This document shows positions 4,302-34,937 of a stretch of DNA of 34,937 nt, piece by piece. How positions within the stretch are numbered: the stretch's first letter is position 1; each line of letters begins with the position of its first letter. The notes under the pieces are model-generated. The model was not told where the DNA came from and made no database searches. It was given only the letters and a program-made list of their open reading frames with translations. The stretch comes from Alphaproteobacteria bacterium. GTDB lineage: Bacteria; Pseudomonadota; Alphaproteobacteria; UBA9219; RGZA01. The DNA is taken from contig JAKFVN010000010.1 in the NCBI GenBank assembly GCA_021732145.1, positions 1 through 34,937 of the forward strand, read 5' to 3'. A program made the translations under genes and the position numbers.

Positions 4302-5467
4302 TAAAGCTTAAATGCGCGTTTCAAATCCGCTGCGATATCGGTTTTTTCCCAGCTGAATGAACCATCTTCGCCGGGTGTGCGGCCAAAGTGACCATACGCA
4401 GCGGTCTTTGCGTAAATCGGGCGGTTGAGGTTCAAGTATTCGCGAATACGGCGCGGGGTAAGGGGCACGATTTCCTGCAATACCTTGGAAATCTGCGCTT
4501 CATCGGCTTTGCCTGTGCCGTGCGTGTTGATATACACCGCAATCGGGTGGGACACGCCAATCGCGTAAGCGATTTGAATGGTGCATTTATCAGCCAGACC
4601 GGCAGCGACCACGTTCTTTGCAAGATAGCGTGCAACATAAGCAGCTGAGCGATCCACCTTGGTGGGATCCTTGCCGGAGAATGCGCCGCCGCCATGGGGC
4701 GCTGCGCCGCCATAGGTATCAACGATAATCTTGCGGCCTGTTAAGCCGGTATCGCCATCCGGGCCGCCAATGACGAAGCGGCCGGTTGGGTTGACGTAGA
4801 AATTCTTGTCATCGCACATCCAGCCAGCGGGAAGAACTTTTTCAACATAAGGGCGGATGATTTGGCGAACCGCATCGGTATCCACCTTTTCGCTGTGCTG
4901 GTGTGACACAACGATGGAGTGCGCGCGCACGGGCTTGCCATCAACATATTCCAGCGTGACTTGGCTTTTCGCATCGGGGCCCAGCATGGGCACTTTGCCG
5001 GCATGGCGTGCATCGGCAAGGCCGCGCAGAATGTTATGCGCATACATGATTGGCGCGGGCATTAATTCAGGTGTTTCATTGCACGCATAACCAAACATGA
5101 TGCCTTGGTCGCCTGCGCCTTCATCCTTGTTGTCTTTGGCATCAACGCCAACCGCGATGTCTTCCGATTGCGCGTGAACCAATACGTCGATGTTGACCCA
5201 TTGCCAGTGAAAGCCGCGCTGCGCGTAACCAATATCGCGAATGGCTTCGCGCGCCACGTTTTGCATATCAAGCGGCGTTACGCTTTCCGGCCCGCGCACT
5301 TCGCCGGCCAAGGTGACGTGATTGGTGGTTGCCAAGGTTTCAACAGCGATGCGTGAATAGGGGTCAGCCTTGAGCAGCAAATCAACGATGGTATCGGAAA
5401 TGCGGTCGCATACCTTATCGGGATGGCCTTCGGAAACGGATTCACTGGTAAAGAGGTAATTTTTCAT
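4301..5467 (-). CDS. metK: S-adenosylmethionine synthase
   Basis: This 388-residue enzyme makes SAM from methionine and ATP. Signature motifs are present: [12 protein letters not shown] near residue 14, [12 protein letters not shown] near 118, and [19 protein letters not shown] near 259. It is followed by trmB with a TAATG overlap and preceded by a helix-turn-helix gene 57 bases upstream. That short gap shows no SAM-II or other SAM-riboswitch pattern that I can recognise. Confidence 0.98.
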
Positions 5468-5524
5468 AGGTCTCGAATGCTCAAAAAGTAAGGAACAGGA
5501 AGGGGGAGTGGCAGGGCGCTGATA

Positions 5525-6013
5525 TTAGAAAACCCAGCTAAAAGCGCAAGAAAAGAATAAAACCACACCTCGTATGCCTTCATCCGTCATGGCGCGGATT
5601 AAATCGAGGATTTTTTTGCGTTTCCTGGGGTCTTCGATGCGGTAATAGGCACGCACCAGATCGGCGGTTTCGCGGCTGGCCATGTCGATTTTTGCGGCAT
5701 CGTCCAAGCCTTCAATTGCGTCCTGGCCGGATTCTGCCATGCCGGGAACCGATGGCTGTTCAATACCCAATTGCTCGAAGAAGTAATTTACGGGAACTTT
5801 CAATGCCTGCGCGATTTCATGCAGGCGGCTGGCGCTGATGCGGTTGGCACCGTGTTCGTATTTCTGCACTTGCTGGAATGTTAAGCCCACAAGGCCAGCC
5901 AATTTTTCCTGTGTTAAATTCAGGCTTAAGCGGCGCATGCGCAACCGGTTGCCCACATGCAAATCGGTCGGGTGAATATCGTTATTCTGTTCCTGGCGCA
6001 GCGGCGAAGCCAT
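5525..6013 (-). CDS. XRE/Cro-type helix-turn-helix transcriptional regulator
   Basis: This 162-residue protein has an N-terminal HTH_3 domain (about 22-76, LTQEKLAGLVGLTFQQVQKY being the recognition region). A short dimerisation-type tail includes DLVRAYYRIEDPRKRKKIL. Regulators of this size just upstream of metK are common in alphaproteobacteria, so it may act on the metK region or on itself. The final residues (VVLFFSCAFSWVF) are unusually hydrophobic for the family and may reflect a changed 3' end. The repeated GTATGCA at 6052-6058 and 6086-6092 upstream could be an operator, but this is inference. Confidence 0.88.
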   Translation of the reverse strand: MASPLRQEQNNDIHPTDLHVGNRLRMRRLSLNLTQEKLAGLVGLTFQQVQKYEHGANRISASRLHEIAQALKVPVNYFFEQLGIEQPSVPGMAESGQDAIEGLDDAAKIDMASRETADLVRAYYRIEDPRKRKKILDLIRAMTDEGIRGVVLFFSCAFSWVF

Positions 6014-6076
6014 TTTGGTGGAAACCTGCTTAAAAAAACGTGGTTACAATAGTATGCAGTCGTGAGATGCATAAAA

Positions 6077-6105
6077 CATATATTCGTATGCAACCGTAAT
6101 TGCAA
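6077..6105 (-). promoter_or_regulatory. Candidate promoter of the helix-turn-helix/metK genes
   Basis: On the minus strand TTGCAA (6100-6105), a 17-base spacer and TATATG (6077-6082) precede the regulator gene. Two copies of GTATGCA flank the -10 element. Match quality is moderate. Confidence 0.35.
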
Positions 6106-6144
6106 CGAATTAGCAAGGCTTAAATTATTTTCATTGTGAAGCGC

Positions 6145-7644
6145 TTAGAAAATAGCGTGTTGAAGTTTTATGAAAGTGGGCGCGGTTTCAAGCGCCTTGG
6201 GCAATGCGCTGTCGATAATACCGCTTTTGTTTAAATCGAGTGATGTGATGATGCGCCCCAGCGGGTCAACAATTGCACTGATACCGGAATTGGCGGCGCG
6301 GATAAGCGGAATGCCTTCTTCAATGGCGCGCACACGTGCCATTGCAAAATGTTGATAGGGCCCTGATGTATCGCCAAACCATGCATCATTGGTAATTTGT
6401 AAAAGCGCTTCGGGGCGATCGGTTTCATCCACCACCTGCCCGCTGAAAATCGCTTCGTAGCAAATCATAGTGCTAAACGGCGGTAAGCCTGGTGCGCGCA
6501 ATGTTTTAGCGCCAGCGCCCGGCGTGAAGTCACCGGAACCAATCACATCAACCGCAACGGGCATGGTTTGCAGAATGCTGCGCAGCGGCACGAATTCACC
6601 AAACGGAACAAGGTGCGATTTATCATAGCTGCCGATGATGCTGCCTTTGTCATTCATCACTACCAGTGAATTGAAATAGGTGCGCCGCCCGTTTTCAATG
6701 ACACGTGATGCGCTGCCCGTTAAAATGGCACCGTCCTTTGGTACGATGTGTTTTAAAATGGCGCGGGCTTCCGCATCTTCATTCAGGAAAAACGGTGATG
6801 CGGTTTCAGGCCAGATGATATGCGTGATCGGTGTTTCAGCCTTTTGCTGCGACATAGCGATGGTTTTGGTCAGGGCCGCGACGCGCTGGTCGTGGGTGCG
6901 GCGCTCGGATTGCTCAATGGCGGGCTGGACAAGGCGCAGCATCACTTTATCGTGATACGCAATCGGCGTTGCTTCCAAACGCTGCATGCCCCAAAGGGCG
7001 ATGCCTGAGAATAGAATGCCAATACAGGCCAGTGTGATAATGGCGGGTTTATCAAGCGGCTTGAAAAGGAAGCTGAATGCAGCGGCCGCCAGAAGTGTGA
7101 GGAAGGTAAGCCCTTCTATTCCAAATACGCTCACGCTCTGGATAACCGGCAAGGTATCAGCCCAGATATAGCCGAATAGATTCCACGGGAAACCGCCCCA
7201 CAGCCAGCCGCGATTATGTTCACACAAGGACAGCAAGACAGATAAAGCGATGATATGCAAAACAGGGTTGCCGCGCAGCTTGTGAACCACGCAACATGCC
7301 GCGCCAAAAATCAAACCAAGATAAGCGGGAAGGGCGAGTAGTGAAAACGGCAACACCCATACATAACGCGCAATGTCGATGAACAGGGATGCGGATATCC
7401 AGTATAGCCCCGCCAGATGAAAGCCGACCGCCCAGCACCAGCCAGCGATAAAGCAGTGCTTAAAGCTGGCGGTGGAGGTAAGTAATACAACAAAGCCGCC
7501 AAAGCCAATTAGGAAAAGGATTGGCCATGACAACGGTGGCAACGCGAAGGCGCTGAGAATGCCCAATGCAACGCACAGAATGTTTTTATGAAGCGGGCGA
7601 AGCTGCGTGAGCTTGGTTACAAGCTGATAGGATTGCTCCAGCAC
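6145..7644 (-). CDS. lnt: Apolipoprotein N-acyltransferase
   Basis: This 499-residue inner-membrane enzyme adds the third acyl chain to lipoproteins. The N-terminal half has about eight hydrophobic segments (about 20-220). The C-terminal half is a periplasmic carbon-nitrogen hydrolase domain with the catalytic triad visible as E280 (IIWPE), K342 (DKSHLVPFGEF) and C395 (MICYEAIF). The start is GTG at 7644, one base after the corC stop, so expression is probably coupled to corC. Confidence 0.96.
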   Translation of the reverse strand: MLEQSYQLVTKLTQLRPLHKNILCVALGILSAFALPPLSWPILFLIGFGGFVVLLTSTASFKHCFIAGWCWAVGFHLAGLYWISASLFIDIARYVWVLPFSLLALPAYLGLIFGAACCVVHKLRGNPVLHIIALSVLLSLCEHNRGWLWGGFPWNLFGYIWADTLPVIQSVSVFGIEGLTFLTLLAAAAFSFLFKPLDKPAIITLACIGILFSGIALWGMQRLEATPIAYHDKVMLRLVQPAIEQSERRTHDQRVAALTKTIAMSQQKAETPITHIIWPETASPFFLNEDAEARAILKHIVPKDGAILTGSASRVIENGRRTYFNSLVVMNDKGSIIGSYDKSHLVPFGEFVPLRSILQTMPVAVDVIGSGDFTPGAGAKTLRAPGLPPFSTMICYEAIFSGQVVDETDRPEALLQITNDAWFGDTSGPYQHFAMARVRAIEEGIPLIRAANSGISAIVDPLGRIITSLDLNKSGIIDSALPKALETAPTFIKLQHAIF

Positions 7645-7645
7645 G

Positions 7646-8608
7646 CTACACGCTTGCCTTTAATGGCGCGGCTGCGTCATCGGGTGTGTATTCGTTTTTA
7701 GGCACATTGTGCACGCGAAGACGCTTGATACGGCGCGTATCGGCGTCAAGCACTTCAAATGAAATGCCAGAGGCGTGGCGCAGCGTTTCACCCTTTAACG
7801 GCACGCGGCCAGCCAGCGTGAACACCAGACCGCCCAGCGTATCAATCGCCTGCCGTTCGTCTTCTTTCAGGATATTTCCAATTTGCTCTTCAAACGCATC
7901 AACGGGCATGCGCGCATCGACCACAATGCTGCCATCCGCTCTGCGTTGCAGTTGAATGACGTTGGCCGGATCATCATGCTCATCATCAATATCGCCAACG
8001 ATTTCCTCAACCACGTCTTCAATGGTCACCAGGCCGTCAATGCCGCCGAATTCATCCACCACCAATGCCATGTGCTGGCGCTTTTGGCGCATTTGTAATA
8101 AAAGACGCGTGACCGGCATCGAGGGTGGGACAAATAGCAGTTTGCGCAGAATATCAGGAATTAAAACCGGCTTATCATCCACCAGCCCCGCCGTTACGTC
8201 CTTGATGTGCACAAAGCCAATGACATCATCCAGTGTTTTGCGGAAAACGGGCACGCGGCTATGGCCGCTTTTTGCCATCATCGCGGCGAGTTTTTTAAGC
8301 GTGGTCGTTTCATCGGCCGCAAAAATATCAGCGCGCGGTATCATAATATCGGAAATGCGGCGTTCGCGCGCATTGAGCAAATTGGTGAGTAGTTCTTTTT
8401 CACCGGTGTTGGAACCGGGCGCGCCTTCTGGCTCCTCCATGATTTCTTCAACGGCTTCGATAATTGCTACTTCCTCGCGCTTTTTGGAGATGAAGGAGCG
8501 GATGCTTTCAAATGCCGCGCCCAGCCATGACGGGTGTGCTTCGTCGGGTTCGTGAGCTGCTTCTGGCCGTGGAGAAGGGGAAGAATTAGGCGGGTTACCA
8601 TCAATCAT
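7646..8608 (-). CDS. corC: CBS-domain protein of the CorC/YbeX (hemolysin-like) family
   Basis: The protein has 320 residues. Two CBS domains (about 85-140 and 150-205) are followed by a CorC/HlyC transporter-associated domain (about 215-300). There is no N-terminal DUF21 membrane domain, so this is the short soluble form found next to ybeY and lnt. Family members are linked to magnesium/cobalt handling and, through the ybeY-ybeX-lnt cluster, to ribosome and heat-stress physiology. The exact molecular role is not established. It starts two bases after the ybeY stop. Confidence 0.93.
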   Translation of the reverse strand: MIDGNPPNSSPSPRPEAAHEPDEAHPSWLGAAFESIRSFISKKREEVAIIEAVEEIMEEPEGAPGSNTGEKELLTNLLNARERRISDIMIPRADIFAADETTTLKKLAAMMAKSGHSRVPVFRKTLDDVIGFVHIKDVTAGLVDDKPVLIPDILRKLLFVPPSMPVTRLLLQMRQKRQHMALVVDEFGGIDGLVTIEDVVEEIVGDIDDEHDDPANVIQLQRRADGSIVVDARMPVDAFEEQIGNILKEDERQAIDTLGGLVFTLAGRVPLKGETLRHASGISFEVLDADTRRIKRLRVHNVPKNEYTPDDAAAPLKASV

Positions 8609-8610
8609 AT

Positions 8611-9123
8611 TTATTTCTTCTTGCGCTCTCTTTTCGGCTCATCAATCACGTAAGGATCTTTAATGCCAAGGCCGGCCAGAATAACTTTTTCAAGTGTTTC
8701 CATGCGAAGGCTTTCAGCATTGTTCATGTGATCATACCCTAACAGATGCAGGACGCCATGCACAACCAGATGAATAAGATGATGATTTAGTGGCTTTTTT
8801 AGCTTTAACGTTTCGCTAACAATAACTGTTTTGCATAAAATGATATCGCCCAAATAAATCGTTTGTTTTGCAGATGGTTTCAGCTTTTTTAATTCAGCAG
8901 TCGTGAATTGCGGAAATGACAAAACATTGGTCGGTTTGTTCTTGCCGCGGAAATCATGGTTCAGCGACTGTATGGTTTTGGGCGGTACAAACGCCAATGC
9001 CGCTTCGAATGATTTTTTTTCAAACCCCAGATGCGTTGAGCAATGCGCGGCAATTTTTTTGAGCATGGCGGGCGGGAGCAGTTTTTTGTCAGCGCCCGAT
9101 GCGTTCAGCGATAGCACAAGCAT
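8611..9123 (-). CDS. ybeY: Endoribonuclease YbeY, rRNA maturation factor
   Basis: This 170-residue metal-dependent RNase is involved in 16S rRNA 3'-end processing and ribosome quality control. The zinc-binding HGVLHLLGYDH motif is intact, with H122, H126 and H132. The C-terminus carries a basic KRERKKK tail. Its ATG overlaps the miaB stop (TAATG). In many relatives a phoH gene lies between miaB and ybeY; here it is absent. Confidence 0.97.
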   Translation of the reverse strand: MLVLSLNASGADKKLLPPAMLKKIAAHCSTHLGFEKKSFEAALAFVPPKTIQSLNHDFRGKNKPTNVLSFPQFTTAELKKLKPSAKQTIYLGDIILCKTVIVSETLKLKKPLNHHLIHLVVHGVLHLLGYDHMNNAESLRMETLEKVILAGLGIKDPYVIDEPKRERKKK

Positions 9124-10505
9124 TAAACGATAACCCCTTCAAGGCTATTGGTGGTGACTTTCTCAATTTTTACATGCGCCGTTTGGCCAAACATGTCTTT
9201 GCCGTTTTGTACATACAGCGATTGCATATGGGGGGTGCGGCCCAATAGCTGGCCGTCCAGCTTACCGTGGCGGTCGAATAGCACGGGGATGGTTTGGCCG
9301 ATAAAGCCTTCATTAAAGCTGCGTTGCTGGGCAAACAGCAGTTCCTGCAAGGCGGCGAGGCGCGCGGTCTTCACATCTTCCGGAATTTGGCCAGCCATAT
9401 TGGCGGCGGGGGTGCCGGGGCGTTCGCTGTATTTGAATGAATAGGCCTGCGCAAAATTCACGTCGCGGATGAGTTGCAGCGTACTTTCAAAATCCTTATC
9501 GCTTTCATTGGGAAAGCCCACGATGAAATCGGATGAGAATGCGATATCCGGGGAGGCCGCGCGCGTTTTTTCAATGATGCGCATGTAATCATCGCGCGTA
9601 TGCTTGCGGTTCATGGCTTCCAGCATGATGTTGCTGCCGCTTTGCACCGGCAGGTGCATGAAGGGCATCAATTGCGGAATGTCGCGGTGCGCGGCAATTA
9701 ATGCATCATCCATATCGCGCGGGTGCGATGTGGTGTAACGAATGCGTTCCACGTTTAATGTTGCAACCGCTGCAATCAATTGGCCCAAGCCCCAGGTGGA
9801 GCCATCATCGGCGATGCCGTGATAGGCATTTACATTCTGGCCTAGCAGGGAGATTTCTTTCGCGCCGCTGTCAATCAGGCGTTGCGCTTCGGCAAGAATG
9901 GCGTTCACTGGCCGCGAATATTCCGCGCCGCGCGTATAGGGCACCACGCAGAAGGTGCAGAATTTATCGCAGCCTTCCTGCACCGATAAAAACGCCGATG
10001 GGCCTTGGCCGGCAGTTTGCGCAGGCAGATGGTCAAATTTGGATTCCGCCGGAAAATCGGTATCAATCACGCCGCCACCTATTTGACCGCCTTTGGCGCG
10101 CATGGCTTTGGCCACCATTTCCGGCAGGCGGTGATAGGTTTGCGGGCCAAACACCATATCGACATAGGGGGCGCGCGCCAGAATTTGCTCGCCTTCGGCC
10201 TGTGCAACGCAGCCTGCAACGCCAATCATCTTCGGGCCGGCAGCATTGGCTTCTTTTTGCTGCTTATGCAAACGGCCAAGTTCAGAGAAAATCTTTTCCG
10301 ATGCTTTTTCGCGGATATGGCAGGTGTTAAGGATGACTAAATCCGCGCCTTCGGCATCATCGCTCAGACCAAAGCCAAGCGGGCTGAGCAGGTCAGCCAT
10401 TTTGGCGCTGTCATAGACATTCATCTGGCAGCCCCATGTCATGATATGGAGCTTCTTGTCTTTTTTAGCAGGTGATGGAACAGGTGCAGTCACGTTAATC
10501 ATCAT
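9123..10505 (-). CDS. miaB: tRNA-2-methylthio-N6-dimethylallyladenosine synthase
   Basis: This radical-SAM methylthiotransferase converts i6A37 to ms2i6A37 in tRNA. Numbering from the ATG at 10505 (460 residues), the N-terminal UPF0004 domain has C26, C62 and C99 for one iron-sulfur cluster. The radical-SAM motif CDKFCTFC gives C179, C183 and C186. A TRAM domain closes the protein. A TTG two codons further up is less likely. It lies 50 bases after olsA and overlaps ybeY by the TAATG junction. Confidence 0.97.
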
Positions 10506-10554
10506 GGGCAATGGTTTAGCCGACCATATTTAGTTGGGAAAGGGCTTTGATTTC

Positions 10555-11319
10555 CTATTCGCTTAATATGCCGTAAGGGCCGTTTTTAACTTGGCTATGG
10601 GCAAATTCGGCCAGCTGCTTGCGGTCGGTAAAGCGGCTGGCCTTGAACGCTTCATGGAAGGTAACCACCACATGCAAGCCACTGGTTTCAAACACCGTCC
10701 ATAAATGCGGCATTAATGTCATGTCGCCATACCATGCATACCGGTTTTGAATTCCGTTGCTGCCAAAGCATGCGATGGACACAGGCTGGATAACTAAATC
10801 CAAATCCTTCACATTCATGAAGGATTGCAATAATCCGCTTTTAAACGGCTTTACGTCGCTGCCATCGGTCGATGTTCCTTCAGGGAATAGCATGATGTTT
10901 TTTTCTTCGCGCATCACATTGATGATGGCTTCGGCTTGTTCGGTTGCGCCGCGCTTATTATTGCGGTCGATAAATACCGTGCCTTGCAGCTTCGTCAGAT
11001 AGCCGAATATGGGCCAATCGGCAACCTCGGCTTTGGCCACAAAATCGGTTGGGATAATGCTGGCGAGGGTAATGGTGTCGAGATATGAAAGGTGATTGGA
11101 TAGAAATAAGGTAGGCACGCTGGTTGACATGGTGCCGCGGGTTTCAATGCGCATGCCCAGAATAGCCTGTGTCAGTACCTTGTGGAAATAAATCGGCAGA
11201 ATGTTTTGAATGCGCCAGTTAAAAAACTTCACCACAATTTGAATGGGCACGCACAAGGCAAGCCAGCCCGCAAACATCACGAAACGCAGCGCAGCAAGTG
11301 TGGCGAATAGGAGCTTCAT
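10555..11319 (-). CDS. olsA: Lyso-ornithine lipid / 1-acylglycerol-phosphate O-acyltransferase
   Basis: This PlsC-type acyltransferase has 254 residues. The catalytic HX4D motif is NHLSYLD (H76, D81), and FPEGTSTDG at 145-153 is the second conserved block. An N-terminal hydrophobic segment (about 5-30) anchors it in the inner membrane. It overlaps the end of the OlsB-like gene as TAATG. That pairing favours the second step of ornithine-lipid synthesis (O-acylation of lyso-ornithine lipid) over general phosphatidic acid synthesis, although OlsA proteins can do both. Confidence 0.85.
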   Translation of the reverse strand: MKLLFATLAALRFVMFAGWLALCVPIQIVVKFFNWRIQNILPIYFHKVLTQAILGMRIETRGTMSTSVPTLFLSNHLSYLDTITLASIIPTDFVAKAEVADWPIFGYLTKLQGTVFIDRNNKRGATEQAEAIINVMREEKNIMLFPEGTSTDGSDVKPFKSGLLQSFMNVKDLDLVIQPVSIACFGSNGIQNRYAWYGDMTLMPHLWTVFETSGLHVVVTFHEAFKASRFTDRKQLAEFAHSQVKNGPYGILSE

Positions 11320-12155
11320 TAAATGATAGGGTCGCGGTTCTTGAGTTCATAATGACGCGAGTATTTTTGCGCAATCAAATCGGTCTTCACAATCACGCAC
11401 ACATCGGTGGTGTTGAATTGTTCATCAACCACTGCGCCATCGCCCACAAAGCCGCCAAGGCGCAGATAGCCTTTTAGCAGCGGCGGCAGCAGGTTTAACG
11501 GCGCCATTTGCGCAAGGCCCTTTTCAGGGTCAACGTCGCCGGGATCCATCAGGCGCATATCGACATAGCGGTGCGGCAATGCGGTGGTGCGCAGATAAGG
11601 CGCGGCAAGATGGTAGTAATAAAGATAGGTGAGGGGAACCGCCAAAGCTTTCGGGTCGGTTCCCGGCAGGCTGGCGCAGCCAAACAAAATATCAATGCCG
11701 TAGGCCGCGATGTAATCGGCAATGCCGCGCCACAGTAATTGCATGGTAGGGCGGTTACGGAAATCAACCGCAACACAGGAACGCCCCACTTCCAGAATTT
11801 CACCGGGGTAGGCGATAAGGCGCGAGATGTCATATTCGCTGCTGGAATAGAAACCGCCATGACGCTGCGCCGCGCCGCGGCGCACCAGGCGATAGGTTCC
11901 AATCACGGCAGGCGGTAAATCACCGGTGCCGTGGTCAATCACAATCAGGTGGTCGCAGAATTTATCAAGGCTGTCGAAATCGACCTTGCCTGCCGCCATT
12001 TCAGCGGTCGCTTTGGCGCCCATTTCCTCGTAAAACACCTTATAGCGCAGGTGCTGCGCGGCCAATACTTCCTTGCTGTCTTGCGCAATGCGCACTTCAA
12101 GGCGGCCAAGGCGAAGCCCGTGCGGGCCAAGTACAGATTGTTCATCAGGGTTCAT
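11319..12155 (-). CDS. olsB: L-ornithine N-acyltransferase, GNAT-like (OlsB family)
   Basis: The protein has 278 residues and belongs to the OlsB/hemolysin-like acyltransferase group. Members transfer a 3-hydroxyacyl chain from acyl carrier protein to the alpha-amino group of ornithine. Family-like features are LRYKVFYEEMGAKA at about 37-50, DHLIVID near 89-95, EVGRSCVAVDFRNRPTMQLLW near 122-142 and LFGCASLPGTDP near 156-167. A good promoter and an AGGA ribosome-binding site precede it. It is translationally coupled to olsA, which together would give ornithine lipid. Confidence 0.85.
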   Translation of the reverse strand: MNPDEQSVLGPHGLRLGRLEVRIAQDSKEVLAAQHLRYKVFYEEMGAKATAEMAAGKVDFDSLDKFCDHLIVIDHGTGDLPPAVIGTYRLVRRGAAQRHGGFYSSSEYDISRLIAYPGEILEVGRSCVAVDFRNRPTMQLLWRGIADYIAAYGIDILFGCASLPGTDPKALAVPLTYLYYYHLAAPYLRTTALPHRYVDMRLMDPGDVDPEKGLAQMAPLNLLPPLLKGYLRLGGFVGDGAVVDEQFNTTDVCVIVKTDLIAQKYSRHYELKNRDPII

Positions 12156-12179
12156 TGCTTAATCCTATCGCAGGCGCGC

Positions 12180-12208
12180 ATCATATGTGAAGTGCGTTTT
12201 AGAAGCAA
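12180..12208 (-). promoter_or_regulatory. Candidate promoter of olsB-olsA
   Basis: On the minus strand TTGCTT (12203-12208), 17 bases, then TATGAT (12180-12185), which matches the -10 consensus at five of six positions. Transcription would start near 12173, about 18 bases before the olsB ATG. Confidence 0.5.
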
Positions 12209-12221
12209 ATCACGGCTTTAT

Positions 12222-12638
12222 TCAGGCATTGCCTTTGGTTTTGGTGCCAAGCCCGATGTCTTTGGCAAGTTTGCTGCGCTCCTTGGCGTAGCTTGGCGCG
12301 GTCATTGGATAATCAGAAGGAAGATTCCAGCGTTCGCGGTATTGTTCCGGCGTCATGTTATACGATGTTTGCAAATGACGTTTCAGCATCTTCAGTTTTT
12401 TGCCATCTTCCAAACAAATAATATATTCGGGTGTGACGGATTTTTTAATAGCTACGGCTGGTTCTGGTCTATCAATTGAGGACACTGCACCGCTGGTTAC
12501 GCCATCAAGTCGCAGGAAGCTATGATACACCTGCTGCACCAAATTCGGCAATTCGCTCATCTCAACTTTGTTATTGGAAACATAGGATGCAACAACATCC
12601 GCAACTAGGCGTGCTAAGTCTGGTTTTTGATTAATCAT
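12222..12638 (-). CDS. mucR: MucR/Ros family transcriptional regulator
   Basis: This 138-residue protein belongs to the alphaproteobacterial zinc-finger-like regulators that control envelope polysaccharide, motility and host interaction genes. The diagnostic block is IICLEDGKKLKMLKRHL (73-89) followed by MTPEQYRERWNLPSDYP. At the metal site C75 and H88 are present. The second cysteine of Ros is an aspartate (D78), as in other MucR proteins, and the last histidine appears to be replaced (T91-S92-Y93). This may therefore be a weak-metal or metal-free member. It sits directly upstream of the olsB promoter in the same direction. Confidence 0.93.
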   Translation of the reverse strand: MINQKPDLARLVADVVASYVSNNKVEMSELPNLVQQVYHSFLRLDGVTSGAVSSIDRPEPAVAIKKSVTPEYIICLEDGKKLKMLKRHLQTSYNMTPEQYRERWNLPSDYPMTAPSYAKERSKLAKDIGLGTKTKGNA

Positions 12639-12723
12639 TTGGTTCTAAGAAAATGCGCAACGCCCATGCGATGCAGATGGCAAATTAATAACGCGTTTTT
12701 TTTCAAAAGCAATCACAAAAAAA

Positions 12724-13236
12724 TTAAGGTGATTTATGAATGTGTTGAGATGTGGGCAACTTTTTGTTCATCACATATCCATCCATCGCTTTTTGCGCGT
12801 GACCTGCGGGCATCTGATAATAATTTGCACGTTTTGAAATTACTTCGAAGCCGTGCGCTTTATAAAAATCGATTGCAGGTTGGTTCGTCACCATCACTTC
12901 AAGAAACAGACTTTGCAGATTATGCGTTGTTTCTTTTTCAATGAAGGCGTGCAGCAATCGTGATGCGATGCCATTGCGGCGGTAATCGGGGTGCACGGCC
13001 AGCGTTAGAATCTCCCCTTCGCCTGCCACATTGCGCGCCATGATAAATCCAGCGGGGATGCCATGAATGCTGATGCCAATTGCACGGGTGAGCGGTTGCC
13101 GCAATAAGCCCGCCATCGCGCTGGCGCTCCAGCGTTGCAGTTCATCAAAGCATTGCGCATGCATGCCCGCCATCCATGCGCTGTCGGCCGCATTCAGTTC
13201 ATGCGCATCAGGCAACTTGCTTGGGAATGTTGACAT
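12724..13236 (-). CDS. rimI: Ribosomal protein alanine N-acetyltransferase RimI (GNAT)
   Basis: This GNAT acetyltransferase has 170 residues. The acetyl-CoA-binding motif A lies in LAVHPDYRRNGIASRLL (RRNGIA being the pyrophosphate loop). LFLEVMVTNQPAIDFYKAHGF is the typical RimI C-terminal block. I use the ATG at 13236. The frame runs further upstream to 13341, but that extension lies wholly inside tsaB and does not look like RimI. The gene overlaps the 3' end of tsaB by 29 bases, and the tsaB-rimI pair is a standard arrangement. Confidence 0.92.
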   Translation of the reverse strand: MSTFPSKLPDAHELNAADSAWMAGMHAQCFDELQRWSASAMAGLLRQPLTRAIGISIHGIPAGFIMARNVAGEGEILTLAVHPDYRRNGIASRLLHAFIEKETTHNLQSLFLEVMVTNQPAIDFYKAHGFEVISKRANYYQMPAGHAQKAMDGYVMNKKLPTSQHIHKSP

Positions 13237-13861
13237 CGGCGTTGCGGAGATAAAGGGGCTGGGGCGGCGTGCTCGTATCGCCTGTTTCGTTTTGTGTGAG
13301 TTCGCAAAGGCTTTGCATGAACGCGCTGTCAGACACATCAAGCATATTGTTTTTTAATGCAGCGTTGATGTGCGTCAGCATCGGCGCGCCATTGCCCGTG
13401 ATGGCAAAAGGTTTATCCTTGGGAAGGCTTTCAATCAAACCATGCGCAGGGCTAAGAAAATAATCACCCAGCTTGCCGTTTTCAAGCCATGCGCAGAATA
13501 AATCCTCACGCTTTGACTCGCGGATAATCAGGATAGGCTGCTGTTGCGCTGCTAATGCGCCAGCGATGATTTTGAAATGATCAAAGCCATAGGTGTGTTT
13601 ACCGCTTGCCAGCGCAAGGCCGCGAATAAAGGCCAAACCCACACGAAGCCCTGTAAAACTGCCAGGCCCAATGGCGATGGCGAAGCGGTCAATATCGCTG
13701 ACCTGCAATGTTTGGGCGGATAATAATTCCGATGTCAGCGGCGCAAGGATTTTGGCCTGGTCGCGCTGCGTTTGAATTATTTTTTCTGCGGCAATCTTCC
13801 CGTTTATTTGCAGGGTGACGGCGCATGTATCGCCGCCTGTATCAATTGCCAGAATTTTCAT
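13208..13861 (-). CDS. tsaB: tRNA threonylcarbamoyladenosine biosynthesis protein TsaB
   Basis: The protein has 217 residues of the ASKHA fold. TsaB partners TsaD and TsaE in making t6A37 in tRNA. N-terminal MKILAIDTGGDTCAVTL and the motif AIGPGSFTGLRVGLAF near residue 63 are diagnostic. It precedes and overlaps rimI. Confidence 0.96.
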   Translation of the reverse strand: MKILAIDTGGDTCAVTLQINGKIAAEKIIQTQRDQAKILAPLTSELLSAQTLQVSDIDRFAIAIGPGSFTGLRVGLAFIRGLALASGKHTYGFDHFKIIAGALAAQQQPILIIRESKREDLFCAWLENGKLGDYFLSPAHGLIESLPKDKPFAITGNGAPMLTHINAALKNNMLDVSDSAFMQSLCELTQNETGDTSTPPQPLYLRNADVNIPKQVA

Positions 13862-13873
13862 TACATTCCGCCA

Positions 13874-14479
13874 TTACATACCGTTGGCGAATTCCGGATT
13901 ATCCAGACCCGCAGCGCGAATGGTTTTGAAGCTTTCGGTATAGGCAAATAATGTCTTCAAGCTGAAATCGATGCGGCGACGAATATAACCATCATTCTTA
14001 TCGGCTTCGGTTTCACCGTTCAGCACATCCTTCACTGTCTGCACCAAGACGTGGTCAGGCGTATAAACAAGGCGCGTATTCTTATATCCGCTGGTGCGCA
14101 GTTCATTGTTGGGATAAGAGCCACCGCGGCTGGCCGAAACCCCAACAATCATCGCGGGCTTATGGCCCATTTCCTTCGGGCTGCAATGCAGAAGAAAATT
14201 CTTGAGGCCCGGGGGCGCCATGCCCGCCCATTCAGGCGATACGATGACGAAGCCATCTGCTTTTTCCACGCGGGGCTGAATGGGTTGCCAAGCCGCCGCT
14301 TTGCCCGGCACAAATCCGCCATCGCCTTCCCATAAGGGCAGTTTTAATTCGAACAAATCAATTAAATCGACAGTCATCGATTTATCAAGTTTTGCAATCG
14401 CGCCAGCAATGTAATCGGAAACTTTGCGCGATTGGGATTGCGGGCGGTGCGAACCGCAGATGATAACAATATGGCTCAT
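13874..14479 (-). CDS. NADPH-dependent FMN reductase family oxidoreductase
   Basis: This flavodoxin-fold protein has 201 residues. The phosphate-binding loop GSHRPQSQSRKV lies at 9-20, and SPEWAGMAPPGLKNFL near 80-96 is the conserved flavin-contact region. Family members reduce FMN, quinones or azo compounds; the substrate cannot be told here. Its ATG overlaps the stop of the upstream nfu gene (ATGA). Confidence 0.88.
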   Translation of the reverse strand: MSHIVIICGSHRPQSQSRKVSDYIAGAIAKLDKSMTVDLIDLFELKLPLWEGDGGFVPGKAAAWQPIQPRVEKADGFVIVSPEWAGMAPPGLKNFLLHCSPKEMGHKPAMIVGVSASRGGSYPNNELRTSGYKNTRLVYTPDHVLVQTVKDVLNGETEADKNDGYIRRRIDFSLKTLFAYTESFKTIRAAGLDNPEFANGM

Positions 14480-15030
14480 GCGACTTGTCTCACTTCCTTC
14501 ACTTCGGGGATGTAGTGTTTCAGCATGTTTTCAATGCCGGATTTCAGCGTAGCGGTGGAAGAAGGGCAGCCCGCGCATGAACCTTGCAAATTCAAATACA
14601 CAACGCCTTCTTCAAAGCGGTTAAAGGTAATATCACCGCCATCTTGCGCAACTGCTGGGCGTACGCGGGTTTCAATCAATTCGCGGATTTGTTTGATGAC
14701 GTCGCTATCGCCTTCATTGCTGGCGGCAGCGGCAACGGGCGCGTTATCGCTAACGGCGGGAAGGCCGGATAAAAAGAAATCCATAATCGCGGCAAGCACA
14801 TGGGGTTTTAATGTTGCCCAATCCTTATCCGCTTTTTTGGTGATGGTGATGAAATCGGAACCCAAAAACACGCCCGCTACACCTTCCACTGCAAACAGGC
14901 CCTTCGCCAATGGCGATGTTGCCGCCTTGGCTGCATCGGTGAAATCGGCAACGCCGGATGCGAGCACGGCTTGGCCAGGCAAAAATTTCAAGGTTGCGGG
15001 GTTGGGTGTTTGTTCGGTTTGGATGAACAT
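14476..15030 (-). CDS. nfuA: NifU-like iron-sulfur scaffold protein (Nfu type)
   Basis: This iron-sulfur carrier has 184 residues. An N-terminal Nfu_N domain (about 1-87, opening FIQTEQTPNPATLKFLPG) is followed by a C-terminal NifU domain with the cluster-binding C152-A-G-C155. Such carriers deliver 4Fe-4S clusters to client enzymes; MiaB, in the same gene run, is one such type of client. A GGAG ribosome-binding site precedes the ATG at 15030. Confidence 0.94.
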   Translation of the reverse strand: MFIQTEQTPNPATLKFLPGQAVLASGVADFTDAAKAATSPLAKGLFAVEGVAGVFLGSDFITITKKADKDWATLKPHVLAAIMDFFLSGLPAVSDNAPVAAAASNEGDSDVIKQIRELIETRVRPAVAQDGGDITFNRFEEGVVYLNLQGSCAGCPSSTATLKSGIENMLKHYIPEVKEVRQVA

Positions 15031-15122
15031 ATGTTACTCCAGTGGGCTGCTCCGGTTTATGGCAAATCAGTCAGTAAACTGGTGCGAACAGCATCAAGCG
15101 TCAAGCGGCTTTGATGGTCTTT

Positions 15123-16256
15123 TTACGTATTCTTGATGCGGCCGTTTTCAATGCTTAAAAACTGTGCCTTTTGCTTGAAAGCGGTAAAGAAACTGTCATC
15201 CGTCCCGGAAAGCCATGCTTGCCCGCCTAACGCTAAAAGCTGCTGGGCAAGCGCATCGCGCCGCATTTCATCCAGATGCGCGGTAATATCATCCAGCAAA
15301 ATCAGCGGCGTGGATTGGTGAATGGATGACAAAAGCCGCGCTTGTGCCAACACCAGACTAATCAGCAATGCTTTTTGTTCGCCCGTTGAACATAAATGTG
15401 CAGGCATGTCTTTCGTCACATGGTGCACTTCCAAATCGGAACGGTGCGTTCCGGTAGTGGTTGTGCCGCTGGCGGCATCGGTTTCGCGGTTTTGCTTGAG
15501 CATGGTTTTGAAAAGCTGTTCGGCATCCAGCGCGTCATGCGTTTCCAGATATTTTTCAAGAAAGCCGTTGATGGTGACAAAAACGCGCGGGAAGGGGTGG
15601 GGGTCATCGTTCAGATGATGGCAAATATGCGTCACCCAATCATTGCGCGCGGCGGCAATGGCAATGCCATCATGTGCCATGCTGGTTTCCAAAGCATTCA
15701 GCCACGCATCGTCCATCATATTATCGCGCAATAAACGCGCGCGGGAACGCATGGCTTCTTCATAGCGATTAATGCGCGTTGAATGCGTGGAGTCGAGCGC
15801 GAAGGCAAGACGGTCAGCAAAGCGGCGGCGTTCGCCCGCGCTTTCGGCCAGCAGCCTATCCATTTCCGGTGTCACCCAAATAACATTGGCGTGGTCGGCA
15901 AGGGCCGTTTGGCTTTTGGCTGTTTTGCCATCAATGCGCAGCAGCCTGCGTTCTTTTTCTAAGCTGCTTTCGGGGTCGCGCCCCATGCCGATATTGACGC
16001 TGCCTTGCTTGCCGTGTAGTTCAAAAAAGGCTGACCACGGTTTTTCAGGCGGGATATGGGTGTTGTGCAATTCCGCAATCGCGGCGCGGCGCAAACCGCG
16101 GCCGGGGCTGAGCAAGCTGATGGCTTCCAGGACATTGGTTTTGCCAGCGCCATTTTCGCCAACCAGAATGACGGGCGCAGCGCCCAATTCAAGATTGAGG
16201 AAGTCATAATTACGGAATGCTTCAAGATGGAGGCGGTGTATCGCCTGCGCGGTCAT
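15123..16256 (-). CDS. recF: DNA replication and repair protein RecF
   Basis: The protein has 377 residues. RecF is an SMC-like ATPase that helps RecOR load RecA at single-strand gaps. Walker A is GENGAGKT (33-40). The signature STGEQKALLISLVLAQ lies near 289-305 and Walker B is PLILLDDITAHLD. It starts six bases after the dnaN stop, with AAGG as ribosome-binding site. Confidence 0.97.
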   Translation of the reverse strand: MTAQAIHRLHLEAFRNYDFLNLELGAAPVILVGENGAGKTNVLEAISLLSPGRGLRRAAIAELHNTHIPPEKPWSAFFELHGKQGSVNIGMGRDPESSLEKERRLLRIDGKTAKSQTALADHANVIWVTPEMDRLLAESAGERRRFADRLAFALDSTHSTRINRYEEAMRSRARLLRDNMMDDAWLNALETSMAHDGIAIAAARNDWVTHICHHLNDDPHPFPRVFVTINGFLEKYLETHDALDAEQLFKTMLKQNRETDAASGTTTTGTHRSDLEVHHVTKDMPAHLCSTGEQKALLISLVLAQARLLSSIHQSTPLILLDDITAHLDEMRRDALAQQLLALGGQAWLSGTDDSFFTAFKQKAQFLSIENGRIKNT

Positions 16257-30100: not shown

Positions 30101-32113
30101 TTATTTAAGCAAGCTGTGGGCCGTGCTGACAATAGCATCATCGGTAATGCCGAAATGCTTATACAAGGTGGGCGCTGGCGCTGACTCCCCGAAGCTGCTC
30201 ATGCCAATAAAGGCATCCGTGCTACGCAAATATCTGTCCCAGCTCATGCGAATGCCCGCTTCAATCGCGATGCGTGGCGCGTTGCCCAGAACCGAATTGC
30301 GGTAGCCTTCGCTTTGCTGGTTGAAGATTTCCATGCATGGCATCGACACAACAGCGGCTGATATGCCAGCGGCTTTCAGTTTTTCATGCGCCGCAACGGC
30401 AATGGATAGTTCAGAGCCAGTAGAAATCAACGTGACCTGGCGTTTCGTGCTATCGCCGCACAGAACATAACCGCCCTTGGCGGACAGGTTTTCATCGCCC
30501 GTTTCGCTGCGCAGGGTTGGCAAGTTTTGGCGGCACAGCGCCAAAAGGGAAGGGCCTGTTTTGTAATTCAGCGCAAGTTCCCAGCATTCTGCGGTTTCAA
30601 TGCTGTCGCATGGACGCATGGTGAGCAAATTTGGAATTGCGCGCAGGGATGATAAATGTTCAACCGGTTGGTGCGTTGGGCCATCTTCGCCCAGGCCAAT
30701 GCTGTCATGCGTCATAATATGAATGACTTGCTGTTTCATCAGCGCGCCAAGACGAATGGCAGGGCGCGAGTAATCAGCAAACTGAAGGAAGGTGCCGCTG
30801 TACGGAATAATGCCGCCATGCAACGCTAAACCGTTCATCGCAGCCGCCATGCCATGTTCACGCACGCCGTAATGGATATAACGGCCTTTAAAATCGGGCA
30901 TGATGTTGCCAAAGCCCTTCACCAGCGTGTTGACCGAACCCGTTAAATCGGCTGAACCGCCAACCAGTTCCGGCACGTTCGGTAGCAATGCTTCCAGCGT
31001 GTTGCCGGAACATACGCGTGTGGCGAGGGTTGGCTTGTCTTGTTTTGCTTTTGCCTTGAATGCTTTTAATGCGTCCTTCGCGGCGCTGCTGATATCGCCC
31101 TTAATGGCGGTATCAAATGCTGCGCGGTTGGCGGATGCCTGATGGCGTTTCGTCCATGCCTGATATTCAGCTTGTGAACGCGTACCAAAGCTGCGCCATG
31201 CGGCCAATACATCATCCGGAACTACGAAAGCGGGTGATGACCAGCCAAGCTTTTCACGTGTACCGGCAATTTCTTCCGCGCCAAGCGGGGAGCCATGCAC
31301 GCTATGCGTACCTGCCTTTTTCGGTGCGCCAAAACCAATAACGGTGCGGCATGAAATAATCGTTGGGCGCGGGTCGCGCTGCGCGGCGGCAATGGCGGCT
31401 TCAATCGCGGCATGGTCGTGACCATCGCAGCGCAGAGTTTGCCAGCCATAGGCTTCAAAGCGTTTCGCGGTATCTTCGGTAAAGGCGAGGGATGTCGCGC
31501 CATCAATTGAAATCAGATTATCATCATATAATACGATGAGTTTGCCGAGCTTCATATGGCCAGCCAATGACGCTGCTTCGTGGCTGATGCCTTCCATCAA
31601 ATCGCCATCGCCGCACATGACATAGGTGGTGTGGTTCACCAGCTCATCACCAAAGCGCGCATGCATCAGGCGTTCGGCAATGGCATAACCAACGGATGTG
31701 GCAATGCCTTGACCCAATGGGCCTGTGGTCATTTCAATGCCTGCGCTTGGCATAACTTCCGGATGGCCAGCGGTAATCGCGTGCAACTGGCGGAATTTTT
31801 TCAATTCCTCAATCGTCATTTTTTCATAGCCCGTGAGATAGTTCACGGCATAAAGCAGCATGGAACCATGACCACCCGATAAAATAAAACGGTCGCGGTC
31901 AGGCCATGTAGGATCTTTCGGATTAAATTTTAAAAACTTGCCCCACAGCACCGCGGCAACATCGGCCATGCCCATCGGCATGCCGGGGTGACCGGATTTG
32001 GCAGCTTCCACGGCATCCATCGCAAGGACGCGGATGGCATTTGCAAGCGTGAGGAGGGCAGGTGAATTTGCCGTGTTTTGAGACATATCTTTTGGGGCTG
32101 TGTTGTTTTGCAT
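30101..32113 (-). CDS. tkt: Transketolase
   Basis: This 670-residue thiamine-diphosphate enzyme transfers two-carbon units in the pentose phosphate pathway. SGHPGMPMGMADVA near 40, the cofactor-binding GDGDLMEGISHEAASLAGH near 166, and the pyrimidine domain are intact. Two starts are possible, ATG at 32113 and ATG at 32086. The candidate promoter (TTGCCA-16-TAAAAA with extended TG) ends only six bases before the first, so that start would be nearly leaderless. gap follows. Confidence 0.97.
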   Translation of the reverse strand: MQNNTAPKDMSQNTANSPALLTLANAIRVLAMDAVEAAKSGHPGMPMGMADVAAVLWGKFLKFNPKDPTWPDRDRFILSGGHGSMLLYAVNYLTGYEKMTIEELKKFRQLHAITAGHPEVMPSAGIEMTTGPLGQGIATSVGYAIAERLMHARFGDELVNHTTYVMCGDGDLMEGISHEAASLAGHMKLGKLIVLYDDNLISIDGATSLAFTEDTAKRFEAYGWQTLRCDGHDHAAIEAAIAAAQRDPRPTIISCRTVIGFGAPKKAGTHSVHGSPLGAEEIAGTREKLGWSSPAFVVPDDVLAAWRSFGTRSQAEYQAWTKRHQASANRAAFDTAIKGDISSAAKDALKAFKAKAKQDKPTLATRVCSGNTLEALLPNVPELVGGSADLTGSVNTLVKGFGNIMPDFKGRYIHYGVREHGMAAAMNGLALHGGIIPYSGTFLQFADYSRPAIRLGALMKQQVIHIMTHDSIGLGEDGPTHQPVEHLSSLRAIPNLLTMRPCDSIETAECWELALNYKTGPSLLALCRQNLPTLRSETGDENLSAKGGYVLCGDSTKRQVTLISTGSELSIAVAAHEKLKAAGISAAVVSMPCMEIFNQQSEGYRNSVLGNAPRIAIEAGIRMSWDRYLRSTDAFIGMSSFGESAPAPTLYKHFGITDDAIVSTAHSLLK

Positions 32114-32243
32114 GTATTCTTTTTAGCATGCGAAACCACGTTGGCAAGGGCTGCTATGAGCCTTGTTAAAGCCCATATAAAACGAGGCGAAATAAGGGTT
32201 TTTTTACCCGCCAACTTCTGCTAACAAAGTGCCTTCCAGTTAA

Positions 32244-32256
32244 GGAGGGGTGGCCG
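32244..32256 (+). repeat. 13-base copy of the tRNA-Ser 5' end
   Basis: GGAGGGGTGGCCG occurs here and again at 32326-32338 as the first 13 bases of tRNA-Ser. The sequence after it does not fold as a tRNA. It may be a remnant of a duplicated tRNA or a recombination scar. Confidence 0.4.
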
Positions 32257-32325
32257 GGCGTAAGCGGTTGCGCGGTGCGTAGAGCAAAGCCAATTAAACC
32301 ACGAGGCCTTATCGGATTTTGGTGT

Positions 32326-32415
32326 GGAGGGGTGGCCGAGTGGTTGAAGGCGCACGCCTGGAAAGTGTGTAAACGGGAAACTGTTTCGTGAGTTCGAATC
32401 TCATCCCCTCCGCCA
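32326..32415 (+). tRNA. tRNA-Ser (anticodon GGA)
   Basis: The gene is 90 bases including an encoded CCA. The acceptor stem GGAGGGG/CCCCTCC is perfect with discriminator G. The anticodon stem CACGC/GTGTG holds loop CTGGAAA with anticodon GGA at 32360-32362. A long variable arm and the TTCGAATC T-loop are present. It reads UCC and UCU codons. Confidence 0.97.
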
Positions 32416-32455
32416 ACAAGGCTCTTTTCCATTTTACAAATCAGGGGATTAAGGC

Positions 32456-32584
32456 ATGAACGCTTTTGCCAAAGTTTTTGCGCGTCTGGTTTTTGTATAT
32501 TGTGTAGTAGCGGCTATTCCTGCATGGGCGCTTGATGATGCGCCGACTGCTGAGGTTCTGGCTAGACCGCAAAATCCTGTCTGA
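32456..32584 (+). pseudogene. Signal-peptide ORF cut off by the first CRISPR repeat
   Basis: ATG at 32456 follows GGGGATTAAGG. The product starts with a convincing Sec signal (MNAFAKVF, hydrophobic core LVFVYCVVAA, cleavage after AIPAWA). About eight mature residues (LDDAPTAE) follow. Codon 34 is the first base of repeat 1, and the frame stops at TGA inside that repeat. Only 42 codons remain. It looks like the 5' stub of a gene for an exported protein whose remainder was replaced by the array. Chance is possible but the signal peptide is strong. Confidence 0.5.
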
Positions 32585-32590
32585 TATAAT
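32563..32590 (+). promoter_or_regulatory. Promoter embedded in each CRISPR repeat (shown for repeat 1)
   Basis: Repeat positions 28-36 read TGATATAAT, a perfect extended -10 (TG-N-TATAAT). Repeat positions 9-14 (TAGACC) match the -35 consensus at four of six with a 16-base spacer. Transcription would start about 7-9 bases into each spacer, leaving about 22-24 guide bases. The same element occurs at the end of every repeat in the array. Confidence 0.7.
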
Positions 32591-34398
32591 TTGACATAAC
32601 GGTGATCTAATGGCCACGGCGTTCTGGCTAGACCGCAAAATCCTGTCTGATATAATGAATGTGTGGGGCGTTCAGCTTACACCAGAGTTCTGGCTAGACC
32701 GCAAAATCCTGTCTGATATAATCAAGTCGGTATTAATTGGAACGTGCGCGGCGTTCTGGCTAGACCGCAAAATCCTGTCTGATATAATTAGAAGGTCGCC
32801 CGATCAAGGAAGTCATGGGTTCTGGCTAGACCGCAAAATCCTGTCTGATATAATGTTCGTTAAAATATCTTGCAAACGTTGAATGTTCTGGCTAGACCGC
32901 AAAATCCTGTCTGATATAATAATCGAAAAATTTATGTCTACATACCGGAGGTTCTGGCTAGACCGCAAAATCCTGTCTGATATAATAACGATTGCGCGGG
33001 ATCACATACCAGCGAAGTTCTGGCTAGACCGCAAAATCCTGTCTGATATAATGTTGGACTTGTATATGCCACAAGCATTTTAGTTCTGGCTAGACCGCAA
33101 AATCCTGTCTGATATAATCCATACCTTGGTGGGTAGCATGTCCTTGCGGTTCTGGCTAGACCGCAAAATCCTGTCTGATATAATAGTGCTCAAATCCGTT
33201 CAATCCACTGTGGCGTTCTGGCTAGACCGCAAAATCCTGTCTGATATAATTGGTTTGCGGACAAGGCGGCTAATTACTTTGTTCTGGCTAGACCGCAAAA
33301 TCCTGTCTGATATAATGGATGGCAATACGATACCAACTGCCACCGTGTTCTGGCTAGACCGCAAAATCCTGTCTGATATAATTGAACGCTAATTGTTTTG
33401 AATTGCTGAATGGTTCTGGCTAGACCGCAAAATCCTGTCTGATATAATCGGTATTCGTGAACTTGAGCAGCGCAATGGTTCTGGCTAGACCGCAAAATCC
33501 TGTCTGATATAATTTCGAAAGATTGTTGTTCTGCGTTGCGTAGTTCTGGCTAGACCGCAAAATCCTGTCTGATATAATTTGTCTTGTTTCCTTGTCTCTT
33601 GTGGGTTGGTTCTGGCTAGACCGCAAAATCCTGTCTGATATAATCGGTTGAGCGTTGGAACACGAAATTATAGAGTTCTGGCTAGACCGCAAAATCCTGT
33701 CTGATATAATAGCGCCTTCTTTTTCATCATCGCCAGCCCGGTTCTGGCTAGACCGCAAAATCCTGTCTGATATAATAAAACCGGTTTAATACCGCTGACA
33801 CAAACAGTTCTGGCTAGACCGCAAAATCCTGTCTGATATAATACCATGACCACGCACCCCGCGCCTGAGTTGGTTCTGGCTAGACCGCAAAATCCTGTCT
33901 GATATAATTTTGATTGGATGAAGGCCAATAACACGCAGGTTCTGGCTAGACCGCAAAATCCTGTCTGATATAATCCGGGAATGTTTGTGCTGCCATCAAC
34001 CGGTTCTGGCTAGACCGCAAAATCCTGTCTGATATAATTGATCTTGCTACCGGGGAAATAGCTGAACAGTTCTGGCTAGACCGCAAAATCCTGTCTGATA
34101 TAATGTGAGGCCGGCGCGGGCGTTCGGGCCAATGGTTCTGGCTAGACCGCAAAATCCTGTCTGATATAATTTGAAGCCCTCCACTGTTGCGCTTTAGAGA
34201 GTTCTGGCTAGACCGCAAAATCCTGTCTGATATAATATCACCCAAGACGGAATCAGCGATAATGAGGTTCTGGCTAGACCGCAAAATCCTGTCTGATATA
34301 ATCATCGCGCTTTAATAACGCATGGGGTGGATGTTCTGGCTAGACCGCAAAATCCTGTCTGATATAATTAGATGCCCTTTTCTTCGTTGTAAGTTGGG

Positions 34399-34434
34399 GT
34401 TCTGGCTATACCGCAAAATCCTGTCTGATATAAT
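34399..34434 (+). repeat. Variant CRISPR repeat (29th copy)
   Basis: This copy has T instead of G at repeat position 11 (GGCTATACC instead of GGCTAGACC). The change falls in the -35-like element and in the part of the repeat expected to pair with tracrRNA. The extended -10 at the 3' end is unchanged. It is the only differing full copy among 36. Confidence 0.95.
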
Positions 34435-34937
34435 CACCTGCCAAGCCGAACCAAGGTTCCACAAGTTCTGGCTAGACCGCAAAATCCTGTCTGATATAAT
34501 GTGATGGCCGATTTGATGTAGTCTTGGTTGGTTCTGGCTAGACCGCAAAATCCTGTCTGATATAATACAATCAGACCAGAAGAAGAACAACGGCTAGTTC
34601 TGGCTAGACCGCAAAATCCTGTCTGATATAATTGGTTACTTGTTGCACCATTGTTGCGGTAGGTTCTGGCTAGACCGCAAAATCCTGTCTGATATAATCG
34701 CACGTTGATGAATGGGCGTGTAGCATCGGTTCTGGCTAGACCGCAAAATCCTGTCTGATATAATTCAGGTTTCAACTGCGTAGCGTTGGCAACGGTTCTG
34801 GCTAGACCGCAAAATCCTGTCTGATATAATATTTTAGGGATCGAACGATATATAGTTACGGTTCTGGCTAGACCGCAAAATCCTGTCTGATATAATAATT
34901 TGAATATTTGGTTACACACCCTAATGGTTCTGGCTAG

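Follow-up and report, generated by a model that had tools for sequence, protein, structure and literature searches.

The CRISPR-Cas locus and the reading frame at its edge

The window (34,937 nt) lies at the right-hand end of contig C24, in a genome of 2.09 Mb. Its right-hand part is occupied by a CRISPR array (32555-34937, + strand) with 36 complete repeats, which runs on into contig C21, where the 37th repeat ends at position 204. The whole array holds 37 repeats and 36 spacers; every spacer is distinct, and 33 of the 36 are 30 nt long. The join between the two contigs rests on a 180-nt overlap of 99.4% identity and is also backed by synteny with a related genome (G002) beyond the cas genes. 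Within this overlap (window positions 34758-34937 against positions 1-179 of L024), a one-base difference falls in a repeat and is probably an assembly-end artefact. Repeat 1 (32555-32590, + strand), the terminal repeat on the cas-distal side, is an intact 36-nt unit with no mismatch to the consensus. The sole substituted repeat of the 37 (34399-34434, one mismatch) is internal to the array rather than terminal.

Beyond the array end at C21:204, a strong hairpin and a T-run precede cas2 (TIGR01573), which lies on the opposite strand to the array together with cas1 (TIGR03639, type II) and a cas9 gene encoding a 1089-aa protein (TIGR01865). In the ORF table for C21:1-5000 the three genes follow one another without an intervening cas4 or csn2. 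A 28-nt antisense match to the repeat (C21:4880-4907, 93%) is followed by hairpins and a T-run terminator on the divergent strand; this segment is a putative tracrRNA by its anti-repeat, and an Rfam search of it returned no match. The CRISPR-Cas locus is an ordinary, complete type II-C system. Beside the tracrRNA-like segment lies a gene for a GmrSD-type restriction endonuclease (C21:5231-6943; L024, genome G000), which suggests that this gene and the CRISPR-Cas locus form a small defence cluster after tRNA-Ser.

On the other side of the array, the window contains a transketolase gene (30101-32113, - strand; NCBIfam TIGR00232, E 1.9e-249), which has DNA matches in relatives, and a tRNA-Ser (GGA) gene (32326-32415, + strand) located by ARAGORN, 139 nt from the array. 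Between tRNA-Ser and the array begins a 42-codon ORF (32456-32584, + strand), of which 33 codons lie outside the array and nine codons plus the stop within repeat 1. The frame from the ATG at 32456 crosses into the repeat without a shift and ends at a TGA (32582-32584), giving the translation MNAFAKVFARLVFVYCVVAAIPAWALDDAPTAE-VLARPQNPV*. The first-pass annotation had described a frame with a signal peptide that enters repeat 1 uninterrupted and stops within it, and both the sequence and its translation bear this out. It had also noted a ribosome-binding-like sequence, and the AGGGG at 32443-32447 (+ strand), 8 nt before the ATG, does form a moderate Shine-Dalgarno-like site. The TGA falls within TGATATAAT, which closes the repeat and resembles an extended -10. 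Repeat 1 contains a promoter-like site (32563-32590, + strand) in which TAGACC and a TATAAT preceded by TG are separated by 16 nt, and the same arrangement is found at the sequence level in all four of the repeats that were scanned.

Residues 1-25 of the ORF (32456-32530, + strand) make up a putative Sec signal peptide with a positive n-region, a hydrophobic core and an AxA site, and cleavage is predicted between AWA and LDD, after residue 25; these features were scored with a home-made heuristic of uncalibrated sensitivity rather than with SignalP. The signal peptide is better than expected by chance. Among simulated frames conditioned on 33 open codons, one as good (hydrophobicity at least that of the ORF, an AxA site and a positive n-region) occurred in 19 of 15,437 when the dinucleotide composition of the flank was used (0.12%) and in 3 of 20,978 with the composition of the window (0.014%), and none of the 288 real ATG ORFs of 33-79 codons in the window and contig C21 reached it. 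Given the many ORFs that a reader might choose, this result is suggestive and falls short of proof. The heuristic also overlooks cases, as it flagged no ORF in the flanks of the relatives. One ORF in the flank of G010 (L184), 619 nt past the tRNA, has a signal-like stretch that is visible by eye after an internal start and that the heuristic missed; the short match of our ORF in L184 is situated away from that stretch.

Array polarity and the tRNA-Ser site

The polarity of the array was read from related systems. Of 34 cas9 loci fetched from the class, 22 have an array, and its cas-distal end is readable in 17; left out were L131 (partial consensus), L145 (array cut by a contig end), L159 (different repeat), the second array of L149, and L129 and L157 (no trailer flank). 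The cas-distal terminal repeat carries at least one mismatch in 12 of the 17 comparators, as against one of 17 for the terminal repeat on the cas2 side. In 11 of the 17, as at the present locus, a perfect hairpin of six pairs or more comes after the cas2-side repeat. The comparison gives a clear polarity for alphaproteobacterial type II-C arrays, with the old end away from cas2. Trailer repeats are described as often mutated in PMC8047081, and PMC12638026, PMC6008519 and PMC8092290 report for type II-C systems both spacer acquisition at the 3', or cas2, end and transcription from promoters within the repeats; array orientation in type II-C is presented as disputed in PMC12638026, which gives the polarity seen here its use. 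Because the cas-distal repeats of the comparators are mostly mutated and published acquisition is on the cas2 side, the ORF probably lies beside the old (trailer) end of the array and not beside a leader.

Both terminal repeats of the present array are intact. This fits a loss of older units at the ORF end, and proves nothing. Set against the 12 of 17 comparators with a mutated unit, the intact repeat 1 indicates that the joint may be younger than assumed, or that the polarity may differ here. A scan of genome contigs with Cas1 yielded only three distant loci and no close sister system.

With the transketolase gene as syntenic neighbour, the same site was sought in 39 relatives, and the flank past tRNA-Ser could be read in 23, three of these flanks being short (76, 150 and 467 nt). 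The genes downstream of tRNA-Ser vary across the 23: a tyrosine-integrase-like ORF follows directly in G001, recombinase-like ORFs are present in G016 and G017, unrelated genes occur in G002, and the remaining flanks hold other genes. In these relatives tRNA-Ser marks a variable insertion site. Two segments of contig C21 (9917-11008 and 14568-15437) match G002 downstream of the same tRNA-Ser, and the CRISPR-Cas locus is therefore placed between tRNA-Ser and conserved chromosomal genes. The 139-bp flank between the tRNA and the array has no relative among 385 genomes of the class, where matches extend over at most 27 bases.

A tRNA-integrated genomic island would be expected to bring an integrase and a copy of the tRNA end, and the search of the locus turned up neither. 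Reading the ORFs of C21:1-11000 by eye revealed no recognisable integrase-like gene between the array and the syntenic genes. A 21-nt pattern from the tRNA end (up to two mismatches) has two sites in the genome, tRNA-Ser itself and one on contig C38 that falls in another tRNA-Ser-like match, and neither C21 nor the window holds a second copy of any 13-mer from the 3' end of the tRNA. Among 18 alphaproteobacterial type II-C arrays, a tRNA gene lies within 400 nt of the trailer in three (window positions 32326-32554, L156 of G003, and L148); by impression rather than formal statistics, this proximity looks like more than chance.

Origin of the reading frame

The 33-residue start of the ORF has no clear homologue in 33 genomes of the order, 385 of the class and 398 of the phylum, each set including the window's own genome, and plasmids and phages gave no clear match either. 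The first-pass annotation had named an intact exported-protein gene at this site as support for its reading and a stub conserved in relatives as evidence against it. Neither turned up: among the 23 relatives, none has a gene matching the stub after tRNA-Ser, the searches elsewhere gave no clear homologue, and no relative examined carries the stub. When eight weakly matching loci were aligned, the matches proved to be mostly N-terminal signal peptides belonging to unrelated exported proteins, a DegP/HtrA-like protease among them; those in L112 and L115 are not obviously of this kind. A match in L185 (E 0.006) falls in a 40-codon open frame and is a short hydrophobic stretch in the alignment, and an 18-residue match in L058 (E 0.008) lies on the opposite strand, some 1.6 kb away from the tRNA. 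Because signal peptides diverge quickly, a distant full-length homologue could be missed.

We favour, with a probability of roughly 0.55, the reading in which an ordinary type II-C locus has its trailer end joined to a bystander, the 5' remnant of an exported-protein gene. Repeat 1 would be the cas-distal, oldest end of the array, lying between tRNA-Ser and conserved chromosomal genes, new spacers would probably enter at the opposite end beside cas2, and crRNAs would be transcribed rightward from the promoters in the repeats. Since the ORF would lie outside the leader and upstream of all in-repeat promoters, it would have no role in CRISPR function. The hypervariable DNA after the tRNA may have brought in or retained the start of the exported-protein gene, whose 3' part may have disappeared as the trailer was joined to it, through an insertion or through the deletion of older array units. 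The first-pass annotation had proposed that the array or its locus replaced the rest of such a gene. Part of this proposal holds up, in that the signal peptide looks genuine and an array abutting a broken gene has a precedent (L155, below); its other part, a longer gene, found no homologue, and we infer both that gene and its replacement by the array. If the bystander reading is right, the locus illustrates on a small scale how CRISPR arrays meet the chromosome at their old end, namely at a hot spot beside a tRNA gene and in some cases with a gene cut through, and the understanding of CRISPR mechanism is unchanged by it.

A serious rival to the bystander reading, which we consider less likely, is that the ORF was never a gene and that a T-rich, non-coding flank happens to read as a hydrophobic peptide. 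An open frame of 33 codons is by itself not rare, as 26-35% of simulated frames stay open over this length. Among the 17 comparable arrays, 8 likewise have an ORF (25 codons or more; ATG, GTG or TTG start) that enters the terminal repeat. This count uses the first-called array starts (L135, L136 and L138 have one more degenerate unit outside), and some of the genomes appear rich in GC, a condition under which chance ORFs become longer. Since a stop is present in frames 1 and 3 of the 36-nt repeat, termination inside the repeat is uninformative; with open frames common and stops in two of three repeat frames, entry into the array and a stop there mean little. The codon usage of the ORF is indecisive, neutral between coding and non-coding: of 511 true in-frame windows, only 3.3% score no higher than its log-odds of 0.56 bits, and 8.4% of 813 off-frame windows reach this value. 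Its GC3 is 0.33, as against 0.58 in genes, and the missing homologues also agree with a chance frame. What weighs against chance is the quality of the signal peptide, which so few simulated open frames and none of the 288 short ORFs equal, together with best protein matches that are mostly the N-terminal signal peptides of true exported proteins.

A second alternative appears quite unlikely, namely that the ORF encodes a small functional peptide, secreted or in the membrane, to which the first CRISPR repeat contributes the last nine residues and the stop. The first-pass annotation had entertained a secreted peptide with a repeat-encoded end, to which the open frame would point, and the moderate Shine-Dalgarno-like site and the signal peptide are consistent with it. 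Read-through transcription into the ORF is conceivable, because no terminator-like site was found between tRNA-Ser and the ORF. Against a functional peptide, no relative carries the ORF, only about eight residues lie beyond the signal peptide before the repeat-coded tail, and no promoter-like site was detected upstream in 32100-32455. Were the peptide made, the stop of its translation would coincide with the extended -10 of the first promoter within the repeats, and its expression could be coupled to transcription of the array, a prospect to which we give very little credence.

It is highly improbable that the flank serves as a leader for the array, carrying an adaptation signal, and that the ORF is only apparent. 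The TGAG before the repeat is reminiscent of the end of type II-A leaders, and the flank directly adjoins an intact terminal repeat. The comparators speak for the opposite polarity, as it is on the cas2 side that they have the conserved hairpin (11 of 17) and an intact terminal repeat (16 of 17); the hairpin of the present locus also lies there, and it is on the comparator polarity that the leader reading was rejected. Published type II-C acquisition on the cas2 side, as reported in PMC12638026, PMC6008519 and PMC8092290, and a 139-bp flank that matches the 385 genomes of the class over 27 bases at most argue in the same direction.

Finally, the codons just before repeat 1 could be the remnant of an older spacer to which a gene start became fused, given that a deletion within one of the mostly 30-nt spacers would leave at most 30 nt before an intact repeat, but this is scarcely credible, since the matches that the last 18 nt have in viral contigs reach no further than 23 of 30 bases, as chance would give (five stretches match the 18-mer exactly without extension), a 26-mer from further upstream has no match in the viral contigs, and no degenerate repeat lies upstream of repeat 1 (best candidate, 22 mismatches in 36).

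Comparison with other alphaproteobacterial type II-C loci

The present locus shares with other alphaproteobacterial type II-C systems the gene order (tracrRNA, cas9, cas1, cas2, array), an array that is convergent with the cas genes, a 36-nt repeat of the GTTGCGGCTGGACCGC...TATAAT kind, and a hairpin by the last cas2-side repeat. It differs from them in a repeat that starts GTTCTGGCTAGACC, in its Cas9, for which the closest protein found is 43% identical, in its intact terminal trailer repeat, and in the signal-peptide ORF in its flank.

Two of these systems have edges that resemble the one described here. In L148 (G073), the type II-C trailer also lies near the 3' end of a tRNA gene, at 23 nt as compared to 139 nt here. 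Within the tRNA-Met element at this locus (5323-15922), an integrase-like ORF occupies 14233-15192 and the tRNA end is repeated over 50 nt, exactly and in direct orientation, at 5351 and 15873. The type II-C locus appears to be cargo of this tRNA-Met-integrated element of about 10.5 kb; neither an integrase-like gene nor such a direct repeat was found at the present locus. The other system is L155 (G019), of the same order. Its fragment at the array flank (position 6300) matches positions 1-45 of the 146 in the Pfam DDE_3 profile (E 5e-5, below the curated cut-off) and presumably derives from an IS630-type transposase, so that its gene family is recognisable, albeit below the Pfam cut-off, whereas that of the present stub is not. 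In L155, as in the array described here, the coding fragment reads directly into the terminal repeat.
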